A program made the position numbers and the translations under genes. The notes below the pieces were generated by a model. That model was not told the DNA's origin. It saw nothing but the letters and a program-made list of their open reading frames with translations, and made no database searches. 38,515 nucleotides of DNA from a virus, in the IMG/VR virus record IMGVR_UViG_3300020179_000075, positions 1 to 38,515 of that record. The stretch is one strand, 5' to 3'. The first letter of the stretch is position 1. Each line of letters starts with the position of its first letter. This document shows positions 6,127-27,110 of the stretch, one piece after another.

Positions 6127-9100
6127 TTATGCCTGTGACTCACTCCATGAAATACGAGTTTGAATCTGGAATGGAGAAGCAAACGTGATTTGTGATAGGT
6201 CAACAGGTACAGCAGCAATCGTTAGAATGTCTGGACCGTTTGGATATACACCATCACCACCAATAATAGAGTTACCTAATGAAGTTAACTCTGACAGATT
6301 CGAAGTGGTTGTTGCAAATGCTCTCTTTGTTCCAGAAACAATACCACCACCTTGAGCACGGAAAGAGAAGATTTGTAGACCACCCTGTAGGCTGTCACCA
6401 ATCTGGTGCTTATAGAGTTGTGATAGCGATGGAGAACCAATCGACTGGAAGTTATCGTTCGATAGGTTAGCATTCAAGAAGAGACGAATTTCACATTCAT
6501 GCGTTGAAAGTACACCAGCACTCTTGAGGTTAACTTGCATTCTATTGATAATATCTCGGAAACCTAGGTTACCAGTAATACCGTTGTCAACAGAAGGAGC
6601 AAGACGGAATGATACAAGAGGTAGAACACCATTTGCTGAAATTGAAGCAAGACCAGTTGAAGTACCAATCGTGAATGAAGGAGCAAAAGGTGAGAATGTA
6701 AGATTAATTCCAGTACCAGTTGAAGTTGCGTTAACTGCAGTACCACTAGTGTTTACAAGAGTAAATCCAGTTGATGATACAGCTCCAACTCTGGATTCTG
6801 CAGGAATACCAGTACCAGTAACACCCATACCAGTTCTTAATGATGCAACAGATGATGCAGACATACCACTAATAGCGGAACTGGCGTTAGTTGTATTAGC
6901 TGCAGCTGTAAATGTTGAAATTCCAGTAGTTAAAGGTTGATCTAGAGTTATAGTAAATACACTTGAACTCGTTTTTGTATATGAAACAATACGAGTATTT
7001 GCTCTAATTCCAAAACCAGAAATAGTAGTACCAGTAATTACTCTAGCATAATCCGTATTATAGTTTGCTGATGATCCAGTATTTGTATATGTAATTACAC
7101 TAGAATTAGCCGATCCAGTGATAGAACCAACTGAAGCAACTGCAGCTTGAGTAAATGTAGTTGTTTCAGCATTAGTAAATCCAAGGGTGTTTGAATCAGC
7201 AGTAAAGAGATAAGCTTTATCATCGTCAAATCTACCATCCATGATTACCGATGTACCCCAGTGTAGGAGTAGTGGTGAGAATGTAGGAGCAGCTTTTGTT
7301 AGAACTTCATAACGAGCAGGTAGGTTACCAGATCTGAAGTATGCTTCAGTTAGTTTGTTGTTATGCAGGAACTGGTGAACATACTTAACTTCACCATTTT
7401 GATCCTTGAATCCAAAACGAATTTTACCAGCACCATACCAAGAGTAGTCCATGTAGGCCATCTGGATCTTATTGATATTGAGATCATAACCATATATACC
7501 TCTTCCATCACACTTATCAATATTCCAAGATGTTTGTGGAACTTTAGTATCAATTGTTTTTGATACGATTACGTTTGACAAAGTAGCACCACGATATTCT
7601 GGTTGTACAAAAAGTTCTGATTCTGAATTAATCTGTATAACTTTATATGACTGACCACGAAGAACAATCATATCGCCAGGATCTAATTGAGTTTGTAGTC
7701 TTGTATCAGAATCTCCAACAATTCTACCAGATCTATTTGTTACATTTACAGTACCAGATAGTTGTTGTGTTGATGAGCGTCTTACTGCATAAAGGTTATC
7801 TCCATCATACTCATAGAACATACCGTTCTGACTGTCAAATAGACCAACGCGAACTGCACAATCTGTCCAAGAATCTAAGTTAAACTTAGGGAATCCATAT
7901 GCAATTGAAGAACCAGCTGTAGATGGTTGAGTAATTGCAAGGTTGGCTGTAGTAGCAGTTGCATTAGCAGATAAAACAAGTGTATTGGTTGAAGCATCTG
8001 CAGACTCAATGGTAGTATTACTTGGAATACCAGTACCAGTTACTGTATTACCTTCACGAATGAATTCAAAAATATTTTCTACAGTAAAAGTGAATGTTCC
8101 AGATGTTGCAGTATCAGCTAACGGTTTAGATAAAATTACTTTTTGGGCAGCATTTCTAACACTCTTAATTTTAGTTCCAGAAAGAACATTGGTTCCACTA
8201 ATTTCCATTCCTGGTTGCAGTGAAGAAATATTGGTTGAGGAAATTCCTGATAATTCTCTTAGGTTTGCAGTAGAAACAGTAGCATTAAATGTCTTAATAA
8301 CGTTAGAAATTGTTGATGAACCATTAGTAATATTACCAGTAAATCTGTGAGTAATGAAGTTATATGTAAATACATAATCATTAGTGATACTTGCAACTTC
8401 AAATACTCCGTTATATGGGTTGTTTCCAGATGGAACTTCAGCATCACTAATTTGAATTTGGTAAGATCCACCAGATTTTAAGAAGTGAGCAGTCTTAGTA
8501 ACAACAGTTGCAGTTGTCCCTGATGATGTAACTCTATGAACATCAACTGGTGGGTTAAAGTTTACAGCAAGTGAAATTTGAATACCTTTACCAGATTGAT
8601 AACGGAAATATCTACGTGTTTGACGAATGATTTGTGAATCTGGGATGTTCCCAGCATATACAGTTACACCGCCGTCAAATGGTCTGTGTGCAGCAGTTGC
8701 ATCTGACTTAACATATAGTCTGGTTGGAGTTACATATGTAGCTGCGGTAATTGTTGGTAGTGTGAAGAGGTTATCCACAGCTACACCAGCACCAGTTACA
8801 CTTTTACCTGCAGGGAATGTTTTTAACTTCAAGAATCCATCTGCTTTTACAGATTCAATTTCAAATTCAAAATAAGTTCCAGGAGAACTTGTACCAGTAT
8901 TCCAGAATCTTAAAGTATCACCAGAACTAAATTCACTCAAAAATTTGGTGTTTGTTCCTTGTACAACTAGACTTGCTGGATCTGTAATACTCAAAGTTCC
9001 TGCACCAGGTAAGTAAGCTCCAATACTTGCAGTTGTGAATGAGTGAGCAGAACCAGCTGGTCTCGTAGTCAATGTCATCGCAACTCGATTCAAAGCATTT

Positions 9101-11661
9101 GTCTGGTTTGATGCAAGTGAAATGAAATCACTATCACGAACAATTGCAAAGTAGATTTGACCATTAGTTAATCCACCAATTGCAGTATCACCACCAGTTG
9201 CATATGTTAATGGAGTGGCATCAGCATATTTGTGACCTGGAATCTTAAACCAATGTACATATTCTGTACCTGGATTGTAGATTAGAGGATCTGATGGACT
9301 GAATGTTTTGGTGATAGATGGAATTTGAGCACCAGAAACAAGAGTAAAGGAAGTTGTCGATCCTACAGAACCAATAGGATAGATATCATCAGCAAGTCTG
9401 TCTGCAGAAGCACTTAGTTTATGATTACCAGTTGATGCTTGGTTTAGATCAACAAATGAGTTTAGTTGACCACCAGTTGATGTTCGTGCAACTGAAGTGT
9501 TTTTAAATGCTAAAGTATTAAGAAGTAATCTCTTTTCACTGTTATTGACGCCATTAGTTGCAATTGTCCAAACATCATTGAAATAAGGGTTATTAGCTGC
9601 ACCAATATATACGGTTTGACCTGGTGAAAATACACTTAAATCAGCCGTAGAACCAAATTGAACTGTAAATGTTGTTGCATTAGCTGCTAAATTAATACTC
9701 GAAATAGCATATTCATTTTGGTTTAATGATAATCTGAAAAATTCTGCTGTGTTGGCTGATGGTCTTGGACCACCTAATTTTACAAAGTAATTAGTACTAT
9801 TTGCTAAACCACCGATAACTGGGTTTCCACCAGAGTCATAAGTAAGTACTCTGTTTGCAGTAAATCCATTTGCAGGAATACGAATAGTATCTCTAGCTGG
9901 ATTGGTTGTAGTGATATTAAAATTATGTGATCCAGAACCATATGTGGTTAAATCAATAACACTTCCAGTTGATTTATCTTTTAATTTAAAGAGATTACCG
10001 CTTGTTCTTTCAATGTTATAGTATTCATTGTTTGTTAGACCACCAATTACGTTAGATGATTGATACTGAACAAAATCATCAGAACTAAATCCATGAGAAG
10101 GAATAAAGAATGAGTTTGCTTCAGCAATTAAAGTAATTGGAGCAATAAATACATTTCCTGAAAGTCCAGTTACAGTTTGTGCAGATCCAGTGCTTGTAGC
10201 TTTTATTCTAATTCTATTTGAGTTAACAACTTCAACAAAGAAAACTTTAATATTTGCGGCAGTTACTGTAGATGTTGTTTTTTGGCCGGTACTTCCTTGA
10301 ATGGTAATATTACCAGAACCAACAACAACTACTGGAGTATTTAAAGTTAATCCGTGTCCAGTAATATTAATATTGGTATTACTATTACCTGAACCTAACG
10401 ACTCAATTTGTAATACTCTAGAAAATCTGAAGTTACCGTTTGTTGTAGTACCAGTCGATGATAGTGTAATTGCAGCCCCACCAGCGGTATTAGATAACTG
10501 GAAAGTGTTTGTAGTAACACTTTTTGCAAAAAGTACACTTAAACTAGTAAGTCCACCAATACTGGTGTTTCCTACAGGTGAAACATACATTACTGGTCTA
10601 TTTTCAGCAAATCCATGACTTGAAATAGTAATGGTGCTGTTTGTAGTACTAATATTTGCAGAACCAGCATATTTGGTATTTGTATTTAAGAAGTTATCAA
10701 TTACCATTGGTCTGAAACGATAGTCTGACGTGTTCTCACCAGAACCGCTACTGCTTGCTGTTTTAGTTGTTGTTAAGGTATCGGGTGTCGTGGTAACAAT
10801 TCCAGATGTTCCTGCGTTAAATGTGAATACCTGAGAAGCAGTCGAACCACTTAGGAAAACTTCTGTACCAACTGCAAAACCGTGTGGGAACTTTGTATTT
10901 ACAGTAAGAACTGATGGTGATGCATTGTCAGTTTGAATATCAGAAACACCAATTGATGCACCATTATAGAATGAACCAGGAATTACAGCAGTGTATGATG
11001 TACTAATAGTTTGTGAAACATTTCCATTAAAAGGAACTTTGTAAATAAACTGGGAGGTACTAGGAACGGAAGTAATTACATATGAACCTTCATAATTGTT
11101 TCTTGATAAACCATTAATTTCAATTGGTGTACCAACAGTTAACCCGTGTGGACCTACAGTATTAACAGTTACGTTTTTAGATCCATTTGAAATTCTAACA
11201 GTAGAAACTATAATTGGAACTTCACCATTTCTTGCATAGAATGATGGAATATTATTTACAAGACGAAGAGTTTCCCACTTAGTTGACTGAAGACCAAATT
11301 CAAAGTCGGTATCAATTAGGTTTTCTGGAGTACTTACACGAATTTTTGATACTGGATCTAGGAAAGTATCGTCTGGACCAAATCTGGTGTAAACATCTTC
11401 AATAAAAATTTGAAGTTTGTCATCCGCTGCATGGTTTGCAGAAGCTGTATTATAAACTAGGTTAAATACCGTAGTGTCATTTTCCTCATCATATACTGGA
11501 TCTGTTGATAGACCGAGTGATGGTTCTGTGAAGTTGTAAATTACTACGTTTCTAGTTACGTTAGTAATTAGAATGAGTCTTTCTCTTGCAATATTGCCTT
11601 GAATTACAATTTGCTTAATTGAAGGTGTGAAACTATAATCTACAATAAGTTTTTTTGCCAT
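6127..11661 (-). CDS. Very large virion structural protein (1844 residues)
   Basis: The longest gene in the window, with an AGGAG ribosome site before the ATG and a late promoter 32 bases upstream. Residues about 160-850 contain at least seven degenerate modules with a HGF/HGL....V motif, often followed by IGGLTN..Y (PHGLTVGTPIEI, SHGFAENRPVMY, GHGLTLNTPVVV, SHGFSSDDFVQY). Residues about 1150-1270 and 1560-1670 carry a second module type (GTGIP..T.I). Between them, around 1380-1530, is a non-repetitive part (YSWYGAGKIRFGFKDQNGEVKYVHQF, FSPLLLHWGTSVIMDG). Its size and place among fibre genes suggest a baseplate-attached or fibre protein. From memory, giant proteins in this position are labelled 'VrlC' in some cyanomyoviruses; that name gives no function. 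Confidence 0.75.
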   Translation of the reverse strand: MAKKLIVDYSFTPSIKQIVIQGNIARERLILITNVTRNVVIYNFTEPSLGLSTDPVYDEENDTTVFNLVYNTASANHAADDKLQIFIEDVYTRFGPDDTFLDPVSKIRVSTPENLIDTDFEFGLQSTKWETLRLVNNIPSFYARNGEVPIIVSTVRISNGSKNVTVNTVGPHGLTVGTPIEINGLSRNNYEGSYVITSVPSTSQFIYKVPFNGNVSQTISTSYTAVIPGSFYNGASIGVSDIQTDNASPSVLTVNTKFPHGFAVGTEVFLSGSTASQVFTFNAGTSGIVTTTPDTLTTTKTASSSGSGENTSDYRFRPMVIDNFLNTNTKYAGSANISTTNSTITISSHGFAENRPVMYVSPVGNTSIGGLTSLSVLFAKSVTTNTFQLSNTAGGAAITLSSTGTTTNGNFRFSRVLQIESLGSGNSNTNINITGHGLTLNTPVVVVGSGNITIQGSTGQKTTSTVTAANIKVFFVEVVNSNRIRIKATSTGSAQTVTGLSGNVFIAPITLIAEANSFFIPSHGFSSDDFVQYQSSNVIGGLTNNEYYNIERTSGNLFKLKDKSTGSVIDLTTYGSGSHNFNITTTNPARDTIRIPANGFTANRVLTYDSGGNPVIGGLANSTNYFVKLGGPRPSANTAEFFRLSLNQNEYAISSINLAANATTFTVQFGSTADLSVFSPGQTVYIGAANNPYFNDVWTIATNGVNNSEKRLLLNTLAFKNTSVARTSTGGQLNSFVDLNQASTGNHKLSASADRLADDIYPIGSVGSTTSFTLVSGAQIPSITKTFSPSDPLIYNPGTEYVHWFKIPGHKYADATPLTYATGGDTAIGGLTNGQIYFAIVRDSDFISLASNQTNALNRVAMTLTTRPAGSAHSFTTASIGAYLPGAGTLSITDPASLVVQGTNTKFLSEFSSGDTLRFWNTGTSSPGTYFEFEIESVKADGFLKLKTFPAGKSVTGAGVAVDNLFTLPTITAATYVTPTRLYVKSDATAAHRPFDGGVTVYAGNIPDSQIIRQTRRYFRYQSGKGIQISLAVNFNPPVDVHRVTSSGTTATVVTKTAHFLKSGGSYQIQISDAEVPSGNNPYNGVFEVASITNDYVFTYNFITHRFTGNITNGSSTISNVIKTFNATVSTANLRELSGISSTNISSLQPGMEISGTNVLSGTKIKSVRNAAQKVILSKPLADTATSGTFTFTVENIFEFIREGNTVTGTGIPSNTTIESADASTNTLVLSANATATTANLAITQPSTAGSSIAYGFPKFNLDSWTDCAVRVGLFDSQNGMFYEYDGDNLYAVRRSSTQQLSGTVNVTNRSGRIVGDSDTRLQTQLDPGDMIVLRGQSYKVIQINSESELFVQPEYRGATLSNVIVSKTIDTKVPQTSWNIDKCDGRGIYGYDLNINKIQMAYMDYSWYGAGKIRFGFKDQNGEVKYVHQFLHNNKLTEAYFRSGNLPARYEVLTKAAPTFSPLLLHWGTSVIMDGRFDDDKAYLFTADSNTLGFTNAETTTFTQAAVASVGSITGSANSSVITYTNTGSSANYNTDYARVITGTTISGFGIRANTRIVSYTKTSSSVFTITLDQPLTTGISTFTAAANTTNASSAISGMSASSVASLRTGMGVTGTGIPAESRVGAVSSTGFTLVNTSGTAVNATSTGTGINLTFSPFAPSFTIGTSTGLASISANGVLPLVSFRLAPSVDNGITGNLGFRDIINRMQVNLKSAGVLSTHECEIRLFLNANLSNDNFQSIGSPSLSQLYKHQIGDSLQGGLQIFSFRAQGGGIVSGTKRAFATTTSNLSELTSLGNSIIGGDGVYPNGPDILTIAAVPVDLSQITFASPFQIQTRISWSESQA

Positions 11662-17670: not shown

Positions 17671-20600
17671 TTATAACCTTTGTGCTAAATTAAAACCGCT
17701 CATACTTTTACTCAAAGAACTTTCACCTGGCATAATTGTTGTTGAGATTATTCCCGAATTTATTATGACTGGTGTTTGATATGCTACTGCAACTGTATTT
17801 GATTGATTGCTGTTATAATATTTATTGAAGTCTTCTGTAAGTGGTTTGATATTTTTGAATGCATCCTTATCAACTTTACCTGATGAATAAGAAGGAGTTG
17901 ATGGTTTAGCTGCTCCTGGATCAGGAGCTCCAGTTAATGCACTGAATAAAGTTGCAAGATTTTTAGTGAACTCACCAGCACCTGCTGCTGATTTTAAATA
18001 ATCAAGTCCAGTTGATGATTCGGTTGGTGTTGTTGAAGCACCACCAGCACTAGTAACTGATCCTGTATCACCAGATGCACCACCCAATGAAGATGCATCT
18101 CCACCAGCCGGTATATTTTCAGGACTTGGTTTACCAGGATTCAATCCTTGTTCTTTGATAATTCTAATTAATTTTCCTGGATAAGCTGGATCCGTAGCAT
18201 AACCCTGTTTCTTTAATAGATATGCGGCATTTGATGCGTTTCCAGAATTACCATATCCTTTATAGTGCTTGTAATCAAGAGACCACATTTTTACATGTTC
18301 TGAAATTGAAGCCTGCGGTGATGGATAATCTTTAAATACTGCATATGTTTTATATGGAGATCCACCAGAATATTCAGTGGTAAGTTTTCTAGTTCCTGGA
18401 GTTCCTTTCTGTCCAAAATAATTATACTTTCCACTTACTGCAGTTCCATATCCTGATTCCAATGCAAATTGTGCAGCAGTAATTTCTGGAATTTTATCTC
18501 CAGCTTGTTTTGCCATATTCATGACAGTAAAGAATTTCTCTTTATTACTTCCTTTTATAGAACCACCCGTTGCCATTTTTGCCAAAACTGCAGCAGAATC
18601 TTGCGCTCTTTCTTGTTGCTCTCTTGGACCCTGATCTGCTGGTTTTTCGTAATTCTTCAATACCCAATTTGATGCTGCAGCAACATTCTTTGTGCCAGTA
18701 AATACACTGGACATATACTCTTTAAATTCAATAGCAAGGAATCCAGTTGCTAACTCATCAGTAGCACCCTTATTCTTCCAATCATGACCCTTCTTTTCCA
18801 TATACTTGGCAAAATTTTTCTGCCTGCCTAGATCTGTCCACTGTGGGTAAGAATATCCAGTTTTTCCATCAAGTTTAAGGACACCTCTTTTCATTCCAGA
18901 TCCCTGAACCCTGTCTGGGACAAGAGAACTTTCTTGAATTAAGTTGCCAACAATACCAGCAGCTTGATAATTTTTAATATTTAAGAGTCTCATCAACTCT
19001 TTTGCAATATTGGCACCCTTTTGGTGCATGGGACCAGCAGCAATAGGACCAACATCCATCGGTGCTTTGTCGTCGTCTCCGCCAGGACCGCGGCCACTAC
19101 CTCCCCCACCACCAACAGCTGCTCCAGAGAAATTAATCATTGCATCTTCAATTCTTTTCAGTAAAGAAATAACATCTGTTCCATTTTTTCTAGGAGATGA
19201 ACCAATTAATTTTGATACACTTTGTTCTTCACCATTATCACTTTTTTTAATTTCTACATTTGATGATGCAGATGGTCCTTGTGCCATTTTCTTCATTGGC
19301 AATTTCTTCATCCCATATTCTTTAATGAATGGTCCAAGTAATGATTTAATAATTGGTTGTAATATAAATCCAAGTGGTCCAAGTGAACCAGTAATTCCAA
19401 GTAAAGCTCCTAAGAATGCTGAACCAAGAATTTTAAATGGTTTTCCCAATATACTTTCTACAATACTACCAGGACCAACTTTACTTAAAGGAATGACAAC
19501 TTCAGGTTCATCTTCTGCAAGGTGTGCGAGTGTAGGTTTAGTAACAATACCACCAACCGCAAGACCAGGAACTTTATCCTCTCCTTCTACTGGTTTTTTG
19601 TTTGCATTACTACTAATGTTTTTAAAGAAACCATATGCCTTATCTGCAAGATAATCACCAAGCAATCCACCAAGTAATGATCCGACAAAAGTACCAGGAC
19701 CAGGAATAACTGAACCAATAAGACCACCCAATGATCCACCAAGCATTGATCCAATTGCCTTAACTGCTGCTTTATCTACTGGATCACCAAGAGCAATATT
19801 TAATCCAAAATCTAAAAGACCACCAACAATAGGAATCTTGGAAAATATTCTTCCTGCAGTTCTAAGACCTTTTCTACCTAATAATTTTAGACCTAGCCTA
19901 GTTGCAGTTCTTTGTATTCCACCTTTAATCACACCACCAGATGCTTGATAAAGTAATTTTGCAATTGCACCACCACCTCTAGATAATCCAGCAATTAATG
20001 CTTTGAATTTACCCTTACCTAATATTCTAAGTAAAGATCTTCGTACTGCTGTGGATATTGACTTAGATGTAATTCCTTTTGCTGCAGCAAGTGCTTTTAC
20101 TGCATCTTTAATTGCAGGAAGTATTCCTTTCTTTCCTACGTCAGATAAAAATCCAAACAGTTTTCTAATTTTAGGAATTGCTCTAACTAGTTTTCCCAGA
20201 TCTGTTAATAGACTAACTGGATTTGATATCCATCTAAGGACGAATACACCAACAATAATTTTTATTATTCCTAGGAATTTTTCTAATAGATTTCCAGCAA
20301 CTAATTGACTGATACCTTCCATCAAGTTAGTCACACCAAATGTCACTGCAGCAGAAACAAAATCAAATATTCCTTTTAGTGCAGTAACAAGTCCTTTGAC
20401 CTGATTAAAATTGTTTGGGTTTGAAATCCAATCAAGAACTTTGTATGCAATCAAACCAAGGATAAGTTGTTGAAGTCCACCAATAATATCCTTTGCTTTT
20501 GATAAAGTACTTCTTAATATATTTCCACCTACTTTCTTTTGTTCAGATTTTTTTTCTTCTGCTAATGCTTTTTGTCTTTCAAGTTCTTTTTTGTTTTCTG

Positions 20601-20778
20601 CATCTCTTCTTTGTTGATCTTTGTTTTTCTTTTCAAATAACTTAAGAAGATTTTTTCCAAGCAAAGAAGCAGACTTTAAATCTTTTTGTTTTTTTACAGT
20701 TGTCTTTTGAATAACAGGATTTGCTTTTACTACTGCGGTTGTAAAAACTTTAGGATCAATCTTAACTAGGGCGTTCAT
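17671..20778 (-). CDS. Tape-measure-like protein with tail-lysozyme and glucosaminidase domains
   Basis: A 1035-residue protein. Residues about 45-82 are a charged coiled coil, about 95-190 hydrophobic helices, and near 410 there is the hallmark GGIVTKPTLAHLAEDEPEVVIPLS seen in many tape-measure proteins. Residues about 583-736 resemble the phage tail lysozyme family (AAGIVGNLIQESSL, YSYPQWTDLGRQ). Residues about 743-876 resemble a FlgJ-like glucosaminidase (ITAAQFALESGYGTAVSGKYNYFG, YPSPQASISEHVKMW). These would cut peptidoglycan during DNA injection. A GGGAGGT precedes the ATG. The protein is a paralogue of the 1208-residue neighbour, sharing the N-terminal design and a C-terminal 30-residue segment. 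Which of the two sets tail length (T4 gp29 role) cannot be decided from sequence alone. Confidence 0.8.
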   Translation of the reverse strand: MNALVKIDPKVFTTAVVKANPVIQKTTVKKQKDLKSASLLGKNLLKLFEKKNKDQQRRDAENKKELERQKALAEEKKSEQKKVGGNILRSTLSKAKDIIGGLQQLILGLIAYKVLDWISNPNNFNQVKGLVTALKGIFDFVSAAVTFGVTNLMEGISQLVAGNLLEKFLGIIKIIVGVFVLRWISNPVSLLTDLGKLVRAIPKIRKLFGFLSDVGKKGILPAIKDAVKALAAAKGITSKSISTAVRRSLLRILGKGKFKALIAGLSRGGGAIAKLLYQASGGVIKGGIQRTATRLGLKLLGRKGLRTAGRIFSKIPIVGGLLDFGLNIALGDPVDKAAVKAIGSMLGGSLGGLIGSVIPGPGTFVGSLLGGLLGDYLADKAYGFFKNISSNANKKPVEGEDKVPGLAVGGIVTKPTLAHLAEDEPEVVIPLSKVGPGSIVESILGKPFKILGSAFLGALLGITGSLGPLGFILQPIIKSLLGPFIKEYGMKKLPMKKMAQGPSASSNVEIKKSDNGEEQSVSKLIGSSPRKNGTDVISLLKRIEDAMINFSGAAVGGGGGSGRGPGGDDDKAPMDVGPIAAGPMHQKGANIAKELMRLLNIKNYQAAGIVGNLIQESSLVPDRVQGSGMKRGVLKLDGKTGYSYPQWTDLGRQKNFAKYMEKKGHDWKNKGATDELATGFLAIEFKEYMSSVFTGTKNVAAASNWVLKNYEKPADQGPREQQERAQDSAAVLAKMATGGSIKGSNKEKFFTVMNMAKQAGDKIPEITAAQFALESGYGTAVSGKYNYFGQKGTPGTRKLTTEYSGGSPYKTYAVFKDYPSPQASISEHVKMWSLDYKHYKGYGNSGNASNAAYLLKKQGYATDPAYPGKLIRIIKEQGLNPGKPSPENIPAGGDASSLGGASGDTGSVTSAGGASTTPTESSTGLDYLKSAAGAGEFTKNLATLFSALTGAPDPGAAKPSTPSYSSGKVDKDAFKNIKPLTEDFNKYYNSNQSNTVAVAYQTPVIINSGIISTTIMPGESSLSKSMSGFNLAQRL
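17908..18010. repeat. 103-bp direct repeat, copy 1
   Basis: Identical to 21135-21237 except for one base (G versus A). It encodes DYLKSAAGAGEFTKNLATLF and the following ALTGAPDPGAA in the glucosaminidase protein. The two copies are 3.2 kb apart in adjacent genes, in the same orientation and frame. Confidence 0.95.
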
Positions 20779-20792
20779 TTATAGTTACCTCC

Positions 20793-23700
20793 CTATGGTC
20801 TAAGATTTGTAAAATGTGTAGCAAGAGCAGGATCATTAACTCCAGTTGGACCTATAGATTGATTTGATGCTGTAGATTGATTAATAACTGTTGGTGGTTG
20901 TTGTACTGAGGGTGTTGTTGTCACCTTTTGTTTATTTTGTTCGTTAAGTTTATTCTGATTCAATGATGATTGAGCAGAAGTTAATGTACTTCCAGATTTA
21001 TTTGGTGATGCTGGTTTTAATGATGGTGTAGAACCAGCAGATGGAGATGGTGAAACAGAAGGTGTAGATTTTGTTGGATCTGAACTCTTGGAGGCAAGTC
21101 TTGGATCAGATGGTTTAGTAGATGTTCCACCAGCAGCTGCTCCTGGATCAGGAGCTCCAGTTAATGCACTAAATAAAGTTGCAAGATTTTTAGTGAACTC
21201 ACCAGCACCTGCTGCTGATTTTAAATAATCAAGTCCACTAGCAGAAGATGAATCAGATCCACCTCCTCCACCTCCTCCACCAGGGGCAGCACCTCCACTG
21301 GTATCTGGAGATGCTGGATCTGCTCCAGTATCAGCGGATGTAGCACCAACGTTTGCTCTTATCCATGCGTTATGTAATGCTGGAGTTTTAGCTTCAATAT
21401 GTGCATGAACATATCCATTACTCATTCCAACAGAATCTTGTATTCCTATGATAGTTGATGGATTAATCATCTGACCCATTTTAACTTTAATACCAGACAT
21501 GTGGCCAGATCTAAAAATTGGAGTTCCAGATGCATCTGCAACCATAACTGCACCCCAGTTTTCACCAACGGAAACAACCTTCCCTGTTATTCCAGCTCTT
21601 ATAGGATGTCTATCTCCTTTACTATCTGGTGTGGATGGATTACTTTTTGTAGAAAGTAAATAATCTCTAGGAATACCACCTGGTCTTGGTCCATTTGGAC
21701 TTCCTGGTGAAGGATTTGATGATCCAGCATGATGACCATATGTATCAGAAAATCCTTTTCCATTGCCCATCATTTTAGGAGGACCTATTGGTGCTGTACT
21801 AAACACATACAATCCACCAGCGGCATAACGTCTAAAAGATCCTTCTGCTCCAGTAGGAATTCCATATTGTTCTACTAGTGCTTTTTTGTAGTGGTATCTT
21901 GGTTTTGGTGGTTTATCTCTCTTTGGTTTTACCAATCCACCTTTTTCATATGGTAGAACATAACCACCAGCCTTTGCTTCTCTATATCTACTTGCAGTTA
22001 ATGCGGGATTGTTTACTGTACGGGGAGTATCAAATGGAATCACAAATGCACTACTTAAAGATCCACCTGATGCCTTTTTCATTCCAACCCATTCTGTACC
22101 ATGACCTATGAAAGAAGTCGATCTACCACCATCTAAAGAAACTGGATATCCAGATTGAGGACCACTAATCCATCCGCCAGATGCTCTCCCCACGTTATTT
22201 CTTCTATTTCTTGGTGGTGAAGTAGTATCTACTCCTTTTGCTTTGGCTTCGGCATCATATTTTTTAACTAATTCTTGTCTTCTCTTAACATCTTCTTCTG
22301 TAATATAATTTAAAGCTAATCCTTGCTTTTGAGCGTGTTTAATGTAGAATGCTCTTACTTGATTAAATGCTTTTTGTTTCTGTAACGTATTTTTACCCTC
22401 ATCGATTCTTAATCGCTCCCAAAAAACACCATTATGTTTATATACCTCATAATCTCCATTAGTTACGTTCAGTAGAACCTCATAGTTTGTTACTCCATCG
22501 GGGCCTTTGAATTGGAGTTTTTTCCTATTTGCTGCCGCATTAGAAGAATCCATCTTTCTTCTTTGATCAGATGATTGCCCCTGTTGTGTAGCTACAGAAG
22601 CACCTTTACTTTGCCCTGTACTTAGATCTTGACTTCCTTTTCCTTGAGCGCCTGCTTCCTTGGCACTAGCAGAAGATTGATCTATAGAATCTGTTTTTGT
22701 TCCTGCTCCTGGAGTGGTAACTGCTGGGGATGAACCTCCAGAAGATTTTTTCTTTTTTTTACCTTCTAAATTAGAAAGAATATTTGCAAGTAATCCTCTA
22801 ACAGTAGGAGGGTTTCCACCAGCTGCACTTGGATCTTTATCACCAAATAATTTTCCAAGTCCACCAATTAAATTATTAGCACCACCTGCTGCTAATGATG
22901 CAAATCCACCTAGTCCTTTTATTGCAACCTTAAGAATATTTTTTGGAACGTTGAATACATTACCAATGAATCCACTTGCCATACCGATGATTGGTTTTAG
23001 CATTGGGAACTTCTCAGCAATACCACCCATGATAGCAAGAATTCCACCACCAACTAAACTAAATGGAAGAGTTAATAACTTTGCAAATTTTGGAATTATC
23101 TTTCCTACAGTTTTAGATAGAGCGCCTGTATCAGGACCGAATACAGTTTCACCCAATCTACTTAATGGGACAATAGCCTCAGGACCAGCCTCTCCAACGA
23201 CTGCTTTTGTTGATTTCTTAACCAGACCACCTTTAGCAAGCATCGGAATGCCTTGAGACTTTGCAATGTCTCTTCCTGCAAGAGTAGCATCAATACCTAT
23301 AGATGCTGCTGTTCCAAGACCAGGCATTGTTCCAGCAACACCTGATGCAAGTTCCATTCCTGCTCCAAGGAAATCTCCCTGCATTGCACGACCAGTTGCA
23401 AATGCTCCACCAGCAATCAATCCCACACCAGGAATTTTTTTAAGTAATGATTTACCTAAACCTTTACCAACTCCTTTTGCGGCATTTTTTCCTGCTGCTT
23501 TTCCTGCCGTCTTTGCTGTAGCTTCAGTTGCAGCCTTTCCTGCACTCTTTACACCAGTCTCACCAGCTTCTTTTGCAGTAGTTTTTGCTGCAGACTCACC
23601 TGCTCCTTTTCCTGCTTCTTTTCCTGCGTCTTTACCTGCTCCTGCAACTCCATCGTCAACACCTTTCTCTACACCACCAACAAGACCAAATGTTATCGTA

Positions 23701-24419
23701 CTAACAATTTGTTTGATGATGTTTGGTACTGCTCTCAATGCACCAACAAGTCCCTCCATTGCTGGTTGTATCGATGGTAATGCACCAAATACTAATCCGA
23801 CATTTTTTACGATCTTGAATAAAACTTCTACTGGTCCACCAGTTACTTTCTTAATAATATTAAAAGTGGCTGTTATCCCTGCAATACCACCTTCAAATAT
23901 CTTACCTGCTATATTGACTGTCGCAACAATAAAATCATAAACACCCCTGAAAAATGTTAGAATGTTTTTTACATGTTGTTGATTCTTTGGATTAGAAACC
24001 CAATCGAGAATCTTATATGCAATAAACATCTTAATCATATCTTGGAAGAAAGAAAAGAATCCTCCTAGAATATCTTTTGATTTCTTCCAAGTTGCATTTG
24101 CTTGAGAATTAATTTTGTCTCTCAGAGAAGAATTTTTTTTGTCTTCTGACTTTGCTTCTTCATCTAATGCTTTTTGTCTTTCTCTGAGCTTTCTTGTTTC
24201 TGCTTGATTTTTTAACTCTCTTTCTTGAGATGATTTTTCTAATTTGAAAATTTTTGCTAAGGATGTCTTGAGGTCACCAACCGTAGTTGCCTCTTTCTTC
24301 TCTGCGTCTACAATGGATTTTAATGACTTTGGAGAAAAAGAGTTAAGAAAACTCTTTTGTCCATCTGACTTTGCCAAAGCACCACCTTTTTTAGAAGATG
24401 GTAGTAAGGGAGAATTCAT
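20793..24419 (-). CDS. Tape-measure-like protein with M23-type peptidase domain
   Basis: A 1208-residue protein. It has an N-terminal coiled coil (about 55-95), hydrophobic helices with IAYKILDWVSNP (about 135-150), a long Ala/Gly/Lys-rich segment (about 235-330), and AKGGLVKKSTKAVVGEAGPEAIVPLS near 398, a clear tape-measure hallmark. Residues about 930-1030 (HPIRAGITGKVVSVGENWGAVMVADASG, FRSGHMSGIKVKMGQ, GYVHAHIEAK) resemble M23 metallopeptidases such as lysostaphin; HAHIE matches the HxH zinc motif. The first zinc motif (HxxxD) is not obvious, so activity is uncertain. It follows gp26 and its frameshift extension, the position of tape-measure genes after G/GT-type chaperones in other phages. 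The C-terminus is Ser/Thr/Pro-rich. Confidence 0.8.
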   Translation of the reverse strand: MNSPLLPSSKKGGALAKSDGQKSFLNSFSPKSLKSIVDAEKKEATTVGDLKTSLAKIFKLEKSSQERELKNQAETRKLRERQKALDEEAKSEDKKNSSLRDKINSQANATWKKSKDILGGFFSFFQDMIKMFIAYKILDWVSNPKNQQHVKNILTFFRGVYDFIVATVNIAGKIFEGGIAGITATFNIIKKVTGGPVEVLFKIVKNVGLVFGALPSIQPAMEGLVGALRAVPNIIKQIVSTITFGLVGGVEKGVDDGVAGAGKDAGKEAGKGAGESAAKTTAKEAGETGVKSAGKAATEATAKTAGKAAGKNAAKGVGKGLGKSLLKKIPGVGLIAGGAFATGRAMQGDFLGAGMELASGVAGTMPGLGTAASIGIDATLAGRDIAKSQGIPMLAKGGLVKKSTKAVVGEAGPEAIVPLSRLGETVFGPDTGALSKTVGKIIPKFAKLLTLPFSLVGGGILAIMGGIAEKFPMLKPIIGMASGFIGNVFNVPKNILKVAIKGLGGFASLAAGGANNLIGGLGKLFGDKDPSAAGGNPPTVRGLLANILSNLEGKKKKKSSGGSSPAVTTPGAGTKTDSIDQSSASAKEAGAQGKGSQDLSTGQSKGASVATQQGQSSDQRRKMDSSNAAANRKKLQFKGPDGVTNYEVLLNVTNGDYEVYKHNGVFWERLRIDEGKNTLQKQKAFNQVRAFYIKHAQKQGLALNYITEEDVKRRQELVKKYDAEAKAKGVDTTSPPRNRRNNVGRASGGWISGPQSGYPVSLDGGRSTSFIGHGTEWVGMKKASGGSLSSAFVIPFDTPRTVNNPALTASRYREAKAGGYVLPYEKGGLVKPKRDKPPKPRYHYKKALVEQYGIPTGAEGSFRRYAAGGLYVFSTAPIGPPKMMGNGKGFSDTYGHHAGSSNPSPGSPNGPRPGGIPRDYLLSTKSNPSTPDSKGDRHPIRAGITGKVVSVGENWGAVMVADASGTPIFRSGHMSGIKVKMGQMINPSTIIGIQDSVGMSNGYVHAHIEAKTPALHNAWIRANVGATSADTGADPASPDTSGGAAPGGGGGGGGSDSSSASGLDYLKSAAGAGEFTKNLATLFSALTGAPDPGAAAGGTSTKPSDPRLASKSSDPTKSTPSVSPSPSAGSTPSLKPASPNKSGSTLTSAQSSLNQNKLNEQNKQKVTTTPSVQQPPTVINQSTASNQSIGPTGVNDPALATHFTNLRP
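21135..21237. repeat. 103-bp direct repeat, copy 2
   Basis: Partner of 17908-18010, 102 of 103 bases identical, in the M23-type tape-measure-like gene. Such near-identity between otherwise diverged paralogues suggests recent copying or gene conversion. Confidence 0.95.
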
Positions 24420-24433
24420 CCTAACTCTTTATC

Positions 24434-24622
24434 CTAGAAATTGTTTTTTTGTTTTGCTTTATCGTTTTCCTCTTTTAACCACTGAATCAGCATCGCAACA
24501 TAAACTTCTTTTTCCCACGGGATCATATTTTCAATTTCTGTTAAACTCCACTTGTGGTGTTGTAACAATGAAAAATTGGTTTCATAATAGTTATTTAGAG
24601 ATTCATTGATTAATGCTAGGCG
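24434..24622 (-). CDS. Probable -1 frameshift extension of gp26 (GT-like)
   Basis: A 62-residue open frame, overlapping the end of gp26 in the -1 frame, with no start codon of its own until a Met 30 residues from its end. It encodes RLALINESLNNYYETNFSLL, then a compact motif HHKWSLTEIENMIPWEKEVY and VAMLIQWLKEEN, ending KQKNNF. If ribosomes slip at T TTT TTC (24628-24622), a 298-residue fusion results. The placement, directly before a tape-measure gene, matches the conserved lambda-type tail-assembly chaperone pair (G and GT). The frame is open for its whole length and ends 14 bases before the next ATG. Expression by frameshift is inferred, not shown. Confidence 0.7.
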   Translation of the reverse strand, partial: RLALINESLNNYYETNFSLLQHHKWSLTEIENMIPWEKEVYVAMLIQWLKEENDKAKQKNNF

Positions 24623-25329
24623 AAAAAACTGTTTAGCCCCTCTAGTACAATCTCATTATCAACACCTGTGTTAGGATTGGTGATAGTAAGTTTGTGTGAA
24701 AGTTTTGGCATGGTCTCAAAGAATTCTTGTAACTTCATGAATTGTTTTGTATTCAGAGTTTCTAAGAATGCCAAAAGTTCTTTCTTAGAATAATTGGTTG
24801 CTTCTTGAACATTTTCACCTTCGTAAATTTGTTCGATACATCCACAAGCAATCTCAAAAACATCATCTAGTTGAGTTCCTGTACCCATGTTTGTTTTAAC
24901 AAAGGTATCTATACTTGGATATTTCATAATAAGTCCAACATCATCAGTCAATTCAATATCTCTTGAATGATTTTCTGGTTTCGAAACTTTAATGTCATCA
25001 ATATTAATCTTAACTGTAACTACAGTTTCGTCATCATCTGGACAAGTAATACCTACTTCAATTTCTTCTCCGATTGATCTTGCACGAATGTTCAAGAACA
25101 AAAATTCAATATCAAATGTAGATAACTCGTCAACTTTTACTTTACTACTATGAAGACAATTTTTTAGAATCGTTTTAATTGCATTCATGATTTGTTTTTC
25201 ATCTTCAGATTCCATCGCAAGAATCAGAATTTTTTCTTCCTTTACTAAGAATGGTCTATACTTTAATTTTTGACCAGTAGAAGGAAGTTCAAGCTCATAA
25301 GTTGGTGTAACAAGATTTGGTAAAGGCAT
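24616..25329 (-). CDS. 26: gp26-like baseplate hub/tail assembly protein
   Basis: A 237-residue protein; T4 gp26 is about 208. The start LVTPTYELELPSTGQKLKYR followed by PFLVKEEKILILAMESEDEKQI is the signature of T4 gp26-type proteins, and DIEFLFLNIRARSIGE is also conserved. It is needed in T4 for hub assembly. The last codons are AGT TTT TTC GCC TAG, which include a slippery heptamer, so a fraction of product may be extended in the -1 frame. This makes the gene a good candidate for the short (G-like) form of a tail chaperone. It follows the tail-tube-like gene by 39 bases. Confidence 0.85.
   Translation of the reverse strand: MPLPNLVTPTYELELPSTGQKLKYRPFLVKEEKILILAMESEDEKQIMNAIKTILKNCLHSSKVKVDELSTFDIEFLFLNIRARSIGEEIEVGITCPDDDETVVTVKINIDDIKVSKPENHSRDIELTDDVGLIMKYPSIDTFVKTNMGTGTQLDDVFEIACGCIEQIYEGENVQEATNYSKKELLAFLETLNTKQFMKLQEFFETMPKLSHKLTITNPNTGVDNEIVLEGLNSFFA
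24622..24628 (-). promoter_or_regulatory. Slippery heptamer T TTT TTC for -1 frameshifting
   Basis: In the gp26 frame the codons are TTT TTC preceded by T, a perfect X XXY YYZ site; the zero-frame stop comes one codon later. No strong downstream hairpin or pseudoknot was found by eye, so stimulation, if any, is unclear. Confidence 0.65.
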
Positions 25330-25368: not shown

Positions 25369-26172
25369 TTAGTTGTTAAATGGACGAACATTTGTAGATG
25401 GTTTAGTAGTATTCCCAACTTCCAAATTATTGTATTCAAGACTGCTGAGAAGATGATATTGATATTCAAATGTAACTGTAACTCTATTGATTTGTGATGA
25501 ACCACCACTCAAAGATATAGAGGAAATAGAAGTTGGAAATGCGTTAACAAGTCGTGCAGAATATCTTAACTGTCCAGAATAAAAATACTTCGCTGGTTCT
25601 CCAGGTGGACTGATTTTTGTATAACCAGCCAACAATGGATTATTTTGTGAATTAGGATCAAATGGTAAAAATTTATCTCTAGCACCATTACCAAATCTTT
25701 CATATTTAGCAACAAGAATATCACCAACAACATCATCAAAGTATCCTACTCTGGAAATCAATGGTTGACCTACTCCTGCTCCAGTAGCTCTATTGGGTGA
25801 CATTTCATGAATTTTATTCATCCATGCATCAAATACTTTTTTTTGATTCATGTATGCATCACACAGAAATGTCATTGATGCTTCACTGTATGTTGATTTA
25901 TATCCATACTTATATTGAGGAGCACCATTGATTGAATACTCTCCAGTTGAAATATTCATTCCAGGTAAACTAACTTCATCACAATAGTATTCAATCAGCG
26001 CAAGATTACTTGCATAGTTTGGATTTATTTTTTGATAAATTCCTCCCTTGGATTGATCAAAAGTTATTGTGTAATAGTTGCTTAAGCTTATTCCATACTG
26101 TTTGACTAAAGAATCAAACTGCATGAAACTCGGTTCGGATACCGTATTTAAAAACTGTTGTGGATCTGGCAT
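25369..26172 (-). CDS. Tail-tube-fold protein, possible gp54 (tube initiator)
   Basis: I chose the ATG at 26172 (MPDPQQFLNTVSEPS), 267 residues, because it overlaps the upstream stop as TAATG; an ATG at 26220 would add 16 residues. The segment CDEVSLPGMNISTGEYSING, then QYKYGYKSTYSEASMTFLCD, and the C-terminal INRVTVTFEYQYHLL are typical of the tail-tube family of T4 (gp19, gp48, gp54). With gp48 encoded just across the divergent junction, this is a candidate for the tube initiator gp54. The family is fairly secure; the gp54 identity is an inference from length and position. Confidence 0.6.
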   Translation of the reverse strand: MPDPQQFLNTVSEPSFMQFDSLVKQYGISLSNYYTITFDQSKGGIYQKINPNYASNLALIEYYCDEVSLPGMNISTGEYSINGAPQYKYGYKSTYSEASMTFLCDAYMNQKKVFDAWMNKIHEMSPNRATGAGVGQPLISRVGYFDDVVGDILVAKYERFGNGARDKFLPFDPNSQNNPLLAGYTKISPPGEPAKYFYSGQLRYSARLVNAFPTSISSISLSGGSSQINRVTVTFEYQYHLLSSLEYNNLEVGNTTKPSTNVRPFNN

Positions 26173-26669
26173 TACCTTGTAACAAACCTCTCTACTGGAA
26201 GAAATAAAGCTGTTTTCCAATCTTCATTATTTATCTGCATTAATGGGGTTACCATTGCATCAAATCTGTAAGCATGTAATGTCTTCTTAGGAAATCTCAT
26301 TTTACCACCCTCAAGTGACAACACAACATCCATTCTTCCACGAATACTTAAGTAATGTAAGTTAGCACCATAGAATCCATTCTGTGTTAAACGAATAACA
26401 TAGACTAAAGGAAAAGTATCATATCGAAATAATCTTTTTGCATAGTATGGTTGATACTCAAAAAAGTACATTCCTCCAGTAGAAGGAACCATTAAATCTT
26501 GAAGAGAAAAAATACTTCTTGTTACATCTGCAGTTCTGGCGAATGCATCAATTGTATCTCTATACCAAGAATATGATCTAGGTTCTTGTGTAGAAAGTTC
26601 ACGAATAACATCAAATATGTTTACCTGTGGATCATACAGATATTCATGTTTTTCGGTTTTCTTTGCCAT
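26172..26669 (-). CDS. Conserved hypothetical protein next to gp4
   Basis: A 165-residue protein. Its core PSTGGMYFFEYQPYYAKRLF, followed by YDTFPLVYVIRLTQNGFYGA and NLHYLSIRGR, resembles a motif I recall from other T4-like phages (a 'G.MYFF.Y.P' and 'D.FPLV....GF.G.NLHYL' pattern), but I cannot name a function. It sits directly after gp4 with no gap and ends overlapping the start of the tail-tube-fold gene, so it is likely co-translated with head and tail completion genes. No membrane segment or signal is seen. Confidence 0.75.
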   Translation of the reverse strand: MAKKTEKHEYLYDPQVNIFDVIRELSTQEPRSYSWYRDTIDAFARTADVTRSIFSLQDLMVPSTGGMYFFEYQPYYAKRLFRYDTFPLVYVIRLTQNGFYGANLHYLSIRGRMDVVLSLEGGKMRFPKKTLHAYRFDAMVTPLMQINNEDWKTALFLPVERFVTR

Positions 26670-27110
26670 TTATTTAAAACCTAAATGATCTTCTGTGAGT
26701 ATTAAAAATTTCATTTGTCTGTCAGCACAATAATCTTCTGCTGCTTTCCATTTAGCTTGATTCTTTGCATACTCGGCAACCTCAGAAATATATTGTCTCG
26801 TTGCGCGTTTCTGTACTGATGGTGGGGTGAGTTGTTTTTTTGGTTTAACTTCAACTAAATATTTTTTATATGAACCACTAACTTCTCTGACTTTTAAATA
26901 AAAATCAACAAAGTATCTATGTACTCTTCCGTCAAGGGGAGAACGATATGGTATAACACACTCTTCAGAACCCCACTCCATAACATCAACACAAGTATCA
27001 CAGTACTTCATAAATTTAAGTTCCCATGATGACCTATATATAATATTAGTGTAATCTCCTTTATATTTAGAGGGATTTTTTGGTTTATAAGACCCTTTAT
27101 ATGTTTTCAT
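26670..27110 (-). CDS. 4: Head completion protein gp4 (gp50)
   Basis: A 146-residue protein, close to the length of T4 gp4. YRSSWELKFMKYCD near residue 25, VHRYFVDFYLKV near 62 and YKKYLVEVKPKKQL near 82 give the D...E.K arrangement of a PD-(D/E)XK nuclease-like fold, as expected for gp4, which completes DNA-filled heads before tail joining. It is the first gene of the leftward late block; a perfect late promoter lies 17 bases upstream. It is divergent from gp48 with only 32 bases between the genes. Confidence 0.92.
   Translation of the reverse strand: MKTYKGSYKPKNPSKYKGDYTNIIYRSSWELKFMKYCDTCVDVMEWGSEECVIPYRSPLDGRVHRYFVDFYLKVREVSGSYKKYLVEVKPKKQLTPPSVQKRATRQYISEVAEYAKNQAKWKAAEDYCADRQMKFLILTEDHLGFK

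Follow-up and report, generated by a model that had tools for sequence, protein, structure and literature searches.

The locus is on the minus strand of an uncultivated virus record of 38,515 bases, a genome fragment taken over its whole length (the window). Read along that strand, a TnsA-like/gp4-type gene (26670–27110) comes first, followed by a DNA end protector homologue (26172–26669), a tail tube gene (25369–26220; phrog_45 E 2.1e-31, PF23849 E 1.5e-16) whose listed open reading frame starts with TTG, and gp26 (24616–25329), which encodes a 237-aa protein matching PF12322 T4_baseplate (E 1.1e-72) and phrog_150 (E 1.2e-77). The next gene encodes 1208 aa (20793–24419) and is probably the tape measure gene, a positional link based on its place and size; it has an M23 peptidase match (E 1.5e-5) that falls below the Pfam cut-off. 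A second very large gene, of 1035 aa (17671–20778), follows. Neither product could be convincingly matched to T4 gp29 or to the gene occupying this position in KVP40 (best E 0.033).

The two large genes are tandem paralogues, with 27% identity over ~440 residues and a shared block of 65 residues near the C-terminus that is 66% identical: two tape-measure-like genes in tandem after the site. One of them carries glucosaminidase and tail-lysozyme domains, the other the weak M23 peptidase match. Elsewhere in the tail region of the window, a gene for an 1844-aa virion structural protein (phrog_5838) occupies 6127–11661 on the minus strand.

The gp26 gene ends GTA CTA GAG GGG CTA AAC AGT TTT TTC GCC TAG (protein C-terminus ...LEGLNSFFA*) and contains the slippery heptamer T TTT TTC at 24628–24622, read directly from the sequence, in phase and 3 nt 5′ of the stop codon. 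After a slip, the −1 frame (TTT TTT CGC CTA ...) stays open for 62 codons (RLALINESLNNYYETNFSLLQHHKWSLTEIENMIPWEKEVYVAMLIQWLKEENDKAKQKNNF; 24622–24437, or 24622–24434 with its stop), ending at a TAG at 24436–24434, 14 nt 5′ of the ATG of the next gene (24419). Upstream, the −1 frame is closed at a boundary 37 nt before the gp26 stop, and the in-phase heptamer sits within the overlap of the 0 and −1 frames. The initial annotation had described the canonical heptamer, its phase, the 62 further codons and the 14-base interval correctly, leaving the minus strand unstated.

Conservation of the slip site and the extension

Conservation of the heptamer at the end of gp26, a check that the initial annotation had proposed, was surveyed in 171 loci. 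An in-phase T TTT TTN was present in the last gp26 codons of 170, ending in C in 140, and the sole exception is a contig in which both frames are fused. The first set comprised 80 viral contigs (55–63% gp26 identity to this phage by best segment), 10 public phage records and the window, and 90 of its 91 loci had the site in phase (87 TTC, 2 TTT, 1 TTG). The second set, 80 further loci obtained with a profile of distant gp26 proteins (at least four on contigs already sampled), had it without exception (53 C, 26 T, 1 A), and the site is still conserved where gp26 identity to the nearest query has fallen to roughly 35%. Across loci the heptamer lies 0, 3, 6 or 9 nt 5′ of the gp26 stop with its phase constant. 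Elsewhere in gp26 genes, 26 of 38,565 codon positions have TTTTTT in phase.

Codon use was compared in 67 representatives (<85% identity). The residue before the Phe-Phe pair varies (Ser, Ala, Asp, Asn), yet the third base of its codon is T in all 67, as is the first Phe codon TTT, and the second is TTC in 64 against a 30% TTC background in these genes. Other Phe-Phe pairs on the same contigs are written TTT TTC in 28% of cases, compared with 64/67 at the site (p 3e-32), and the excess persists among the 26 representatives with <70% identity (p 1e-11); both p values are nominal, as the sequences share ancestry. Judged from this pattern, the constraint on the Phe-Phe site acts at the nucleotide level.

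The extension is also conserved as a protein. As the initial annotation had suggested from the motif WSLTEIENMIPWEKEVY, its 62 residues match a known family, phrog_634 (‘baseplate hub assembly catalyst’, gp51; E 2.5e-28), over profile positions 58–117 of 121, and a tblastn search with them retrieved 613 phage records, mainly from phages of Synechococcus and other cyanobacteria, Vibrio, Aeromonas, Rhizobium and Methylophilales. Within this phage’s clade, changes in the extension fall on codon positions 1, 2 and 3 in the numbers 90, 56 and 156, a third-position excess.

The site was also seen far from the cyanophages. In Desulfovibrio phage 7757 (L086:4990–5180), whose record carries no annotation, gp26 ends GAT TTT TTC ATC TAG and is followed by an extension of about the usual length without an early start codon.

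T4 genes 26 and 51, a fused contig and a probable chaperone fold

In T4, genes 26 and 51 are divergent neighbours. T4 gp26 (208 aa) is a PF12322 protein of the short form, and T4 gp51 (249 aa) consists of a PF12322 domain (residues 1–201, E 3.9e-52) followed by the same extension, matching both phrog_150 and phrog_634. A virtual fusion of the two frames of this phage aligned with T4 gp51 through the junction without a gap (SFF/RLAL vs DVF/KLLV, junction at the slash). Among the 13 records searched for PF12322 genes T4 has two and the other 12 one each, and no second PF12322 match, that is, no separate gp51-like gene, was found in this 38.5-kb genome fragment. These comparisons indicate that the short and long forms have their T4 counterparts in two separate paralogues, genes 26 and 51 respectively. 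The Phe-Phe codons of T4 gene 26 are TTC TTT, which is non-slippery, and the heptamer is absent, presumably because it is not needed there.

The one locus without an in-phase heptamer is on a 236-kb contig with a single PF12322 gene (L057:2501–3391), in which gp26 and gp51 are read in one frame as a 297-aa fusion; relative to a second contig, L060, two bases have been lost at the heptamer. This contig either carries an evolved fusion, with frameshifting left behind, or is misassembled; one case cannot decide between the two.

The predicted structure of this fused protein has a mean pLDDT of 88, with the extension, modelled at little alignment depth, forming helices of low to moderate confidence. 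The best PDB match to residues 1–86 is the HK97 tail assembly chaperone (TAC) 2ob9 (Z 7.9, rmsd 4.0, 84 residues aligned), followed by 3fgx (Z 7.8) and YqbN 3klu (Z 7.2), with the next match at 4.6; 3klu and 3fgx are proteins that we take to be prophage TAC-type. Foldseek by itself returned no significant match in the PDB, with the HK97 TAC at E 2.3, ranking top after re-alignment. Sequence searches of the PDB with gp26 and T4 gp51 gave nothing convincing, and a mixed alignment of gp26 and extension fragments was poor and was dropped. The modelled fold match, with Z just under 8, is supportive of a TAC assignment for the N-terminal domain, without being decisive.

The short form and the predicted long form would share this N-terminal domain, one PF12322 gene with a −1 extension encoding both, as expected of TACs. 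The suggestion in the initial annotation that gp26 plays the G role is thus backed by the architecture of T4 gp51, the HK97 chaperone fold match, and the position of gp26 between the tail tube gene and a very large gene.

Probable stimulatory elements, start codons and alternatives to slippage

Upstream of the heptamer, at a distance of 8 nt, lies a Shine-Dalgarno (SD)-like GAGGR, which is GAGGGG in this phage (24637–24642, minus strand) and a probable stimulator. The Glu-Gly pair it encodes is conserved as protein, but the Glu codon is biased to GAG (GAG:GAA 49:12 in 61 representatives) relative to other Glu-Gly pairs (100:176, n = 276; p 2.6e-10). Anti-SD pairing at the element averages −6.8 kcal/mol against −1.1 kcal/mol elsewhere in gp26, a difference owed in part to the conserved Glu-Gly. 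The spacing between element and heptamer resembles that in E. coli dnaX.

Downstream, the fold z of 62 representatives averages −2.09 compared with −0.23 at a control position. Many relatives have a hairpin, commonly of the form GUAUGGCNCA...UGNGUCAUAC, which starts 5–6 nt after the heptamer (e.g. L013:3208–3258) and covaries, with 34 double changes against 14.2 ± 2.6 in shuffled data (0/500 shuffles); one of its pairs occurs as UA 18, GC 14, AU 4 and GU 2 times. The hairpin is absent from this phage’s own clade (the window and L001–L005), and no downstream RNA structure was found in this phage over 60 nt (fold z −0.36) or 122 nt (0.36). The initial annotation was therefore right that no strong stimulatory structure is present here, but it overlooked the SD-like element, the only stimulator seen in this phage, and its statement does not extend to the many relatives with a hairpin. 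As no downstream structure is detectable, slippage in this phage may be modest.

The main alternative is that gp51 is a separate short gene, translated from an independent start or by reinitiation near the gp26 stop, in which case the overlap would reflect coupling and the heptamer would be incidental. Short gp51 genes are indeed annotated in S-PM2 (57 residues, beginning at an ATG that lies 2 nt beyond the gp26 stop codon) and other cyanophages, and among the 90 first-set loci 55 have as their earliest start an ATG that begins 5 nt past the opening base of the gp26 stop codon. Possible early starts in the −1 frame occur in 127 of 170 loci, where a separate gp51 could also be made. However, in the remaining 43, this phage included, the −1 open reading frame has no ATG, GTG or TTG before codon 12 of the conserved extension. 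With the heptamer conserved as well, this contradicts both parts of the sequence pattern that the initial annotation held would count against frameshifting, an unconserved heptamer and a conserved start of its own for the downstream frame. Upstream of the extension, 165 of 170 loci have no such codon. The 35 start-less loci that were compared in full, again including this phage, keep the motif (R/L)(I/L)xLSHxSLxNYYxTNF, therefore initiation cannot be the general route of expression. Of the 62 codons in this phage, the first that could serve as starts are 18 (TTG) and 32 (ATG), both of which would omit the conserved first part; the earlier observation that an early start is lacking was correct, its placing of the first start near the end of the frame was not.

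The stimulatory signals point the same way. The SD-like element is ~20 nt away from the ATG near the gp26 stop, a distance too great for initiation, whereas its position suits slippage, and in relatives the ATG annotated as the gp51 start is enclosed within the hairpin stem. Furthermore, conservation of the heptamer is near total and exceeds codon bias, and T4 gp51 is a full fusion. We consider a separate gp51 gene a very unlikely explanation of the locus.

Slippage of RNA polymerase on the T run, with one base lost or gained, would also yield a fusion without ribosomal slippage, and runs of 7–8 T at some loci (e.g. AGT TTT TTT TAA) would suit it. Most sites, however, have six T followed by a selected C, where a longer uninterrupted run would be favoured, and polymerase slippage assigns no role to the SD-like element or to a covarying hairpin at ribosomal spacing, which makes it extremely unlikely. 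The chance that the site is merely a conserved C-terminal Phe-Phe, also kept by T4 gp26, beside a decayed gene or a sequencing frameshift is negligible, given that T4 encodes the same residues as TTC TTT, that hundreds of phages conserve the protein sequence of the extension, and that an error cannot recur at the same place in 170 loci.

Proposed mechanism and known tail chaperones

Very probably, then, this marine T4-like phage makes two tail-chaperone forms from its gp26 gene by −1 ribosomal slippage at T TTT TTC. Most ribosomes would read AGT TTT TTC GCC and terminate at the gp26 stop, producing the short form of the tail assembly chaperone, in the part of lambda gpG or TAC-N. Some, a minority, would be held where GAGGGG pairs with the anti-Shine-Dalgarno of 16S rRNA, slip by −1 on T TTT TTC, re-pair as TTT TTT and read the 62 further codons. 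The predicted product is a 298-residue gp26–gp51 fusion (the gpGT or TAC-NC role), with the junction peptide LTITNPNTGVDNEIVLEGLNSFFR in place of the gp26 end ...NSFFA and a TAC-C-like extension. If they act as lambda gpG/gpGT do (PMC5009743), the two forms together would load the tape measure protein that the next gene probably encodes and would recruit the tail tube.

The arrangement is similar to that of lambda gpG/gpGT in its −1 slippage (predicted here) near the 3′ end of the gene, its short extension and its place between the tail tube gene and, here, a probable tape measure gene. It differs in its slip sequence and in belonging to a contractile-tail phage, and we know of no sequence similarity between lambda gpG/gpGT and the proteins of this phage. 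There is also a close likeness to gp26/gp51 of T4-like phages, with the same families, a short form corresponding to gp26, and a long form consisting of a gp26-type domain and the gp51 extension; T4, unlike this phage, has both forms as separate divergent genes without the heptamer.

T4 gp26 and gp51 were reportedly identified as tail assembly chaperones by Vladimirov, Gautam and Davidson in 2022 (Virology 566:9–15), who are also said to have found the frameshifting conserved in several T4-like groups, with T4 using genes 26 and 51 instead. The core idea is thus already published, and this locus is a clean new example of it. The PRFect paper (PMC10885494) cites Vladimirov et al. 2022 on T4-like phages that have one short TAC gene and one that is long and fused, and PMC12846349 refers to the same study when it describes poly-T slip sites in the TAC-N genes of T4-like phages. 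A search of the literature, which stopped short of Vladimirov et al. 2022 itself, found no mention of the SD-like element, the covarying hairpin, the fused contig or conservation as broad as 170 in 171 loci, and no experiment on this phage group. The TAC locus of Vandenendeviridae and Andersonviridae (phage Adele, PMC12846349) likewise has a conserved poly-T −1 site at the end of TAC-N and an extension whose frame is open in every genome and which is often wrongly annotated as a gene of its own, as it is here, but these are other phage families and their conserved motif is GTTTTT.

According to the initial annotation, the frameshift is not known as a standard annotation for T4-like cyanophages, and public annotation is inconsistent. 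The extension is labelled gp51 in some relatives, and in S-WAM1, S-BM3 and Aeromonas phage AS-zj the frame is open but the gene unannotated. In AS-zj (L088:4222–5171) the first start codon of the extension is at about codon 31.

A T4 review (PMC3004832) counts both gp26 and gp51 among the hub assembly chaperones and notes that the finished particle contains no gp51. Sullivan et al. 2010 (PMC3037559) observed that in cyanophage and marine vibriophage gp51 the ~200 residues that open T4 gp51 are lacking, and that Aeh1 seemed to have no gp51; they mention no frameshift. The missing cyanophage residues would be absent because they are gp26, joined to the extension by slippage, and by analogy a late start like that of AS-zj may account for the reported lack of gp51 in Aeh1.

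A broader history is quite possible, though we would not call it probable. The ancestral T4-like state may have been one frameshifted chaperone gene, whose slip site and SD-like element gave both forms, joined in one large marine clade by a covarying hairpin that hides the mistaken gp51 start. T4 genes 26 and 51 would then be a later split by duplication that freed gene 26 from the heptamer, and the fused contig a second escape, by in-frame fusion.

Frameshifting at this site would explain why cyanophage ‘gp51’ looks cut down to about one-fifth the size of T4 gp51, and probably also why gp51 seemed absent from Aeh1. A misannotated gene pair is probable in several hundred public T4-like genomes. 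The finding would also bring T4 gp26 and gp51, hub proteins that have long been puzzling, into the general scheme of short and long tail chaperones.
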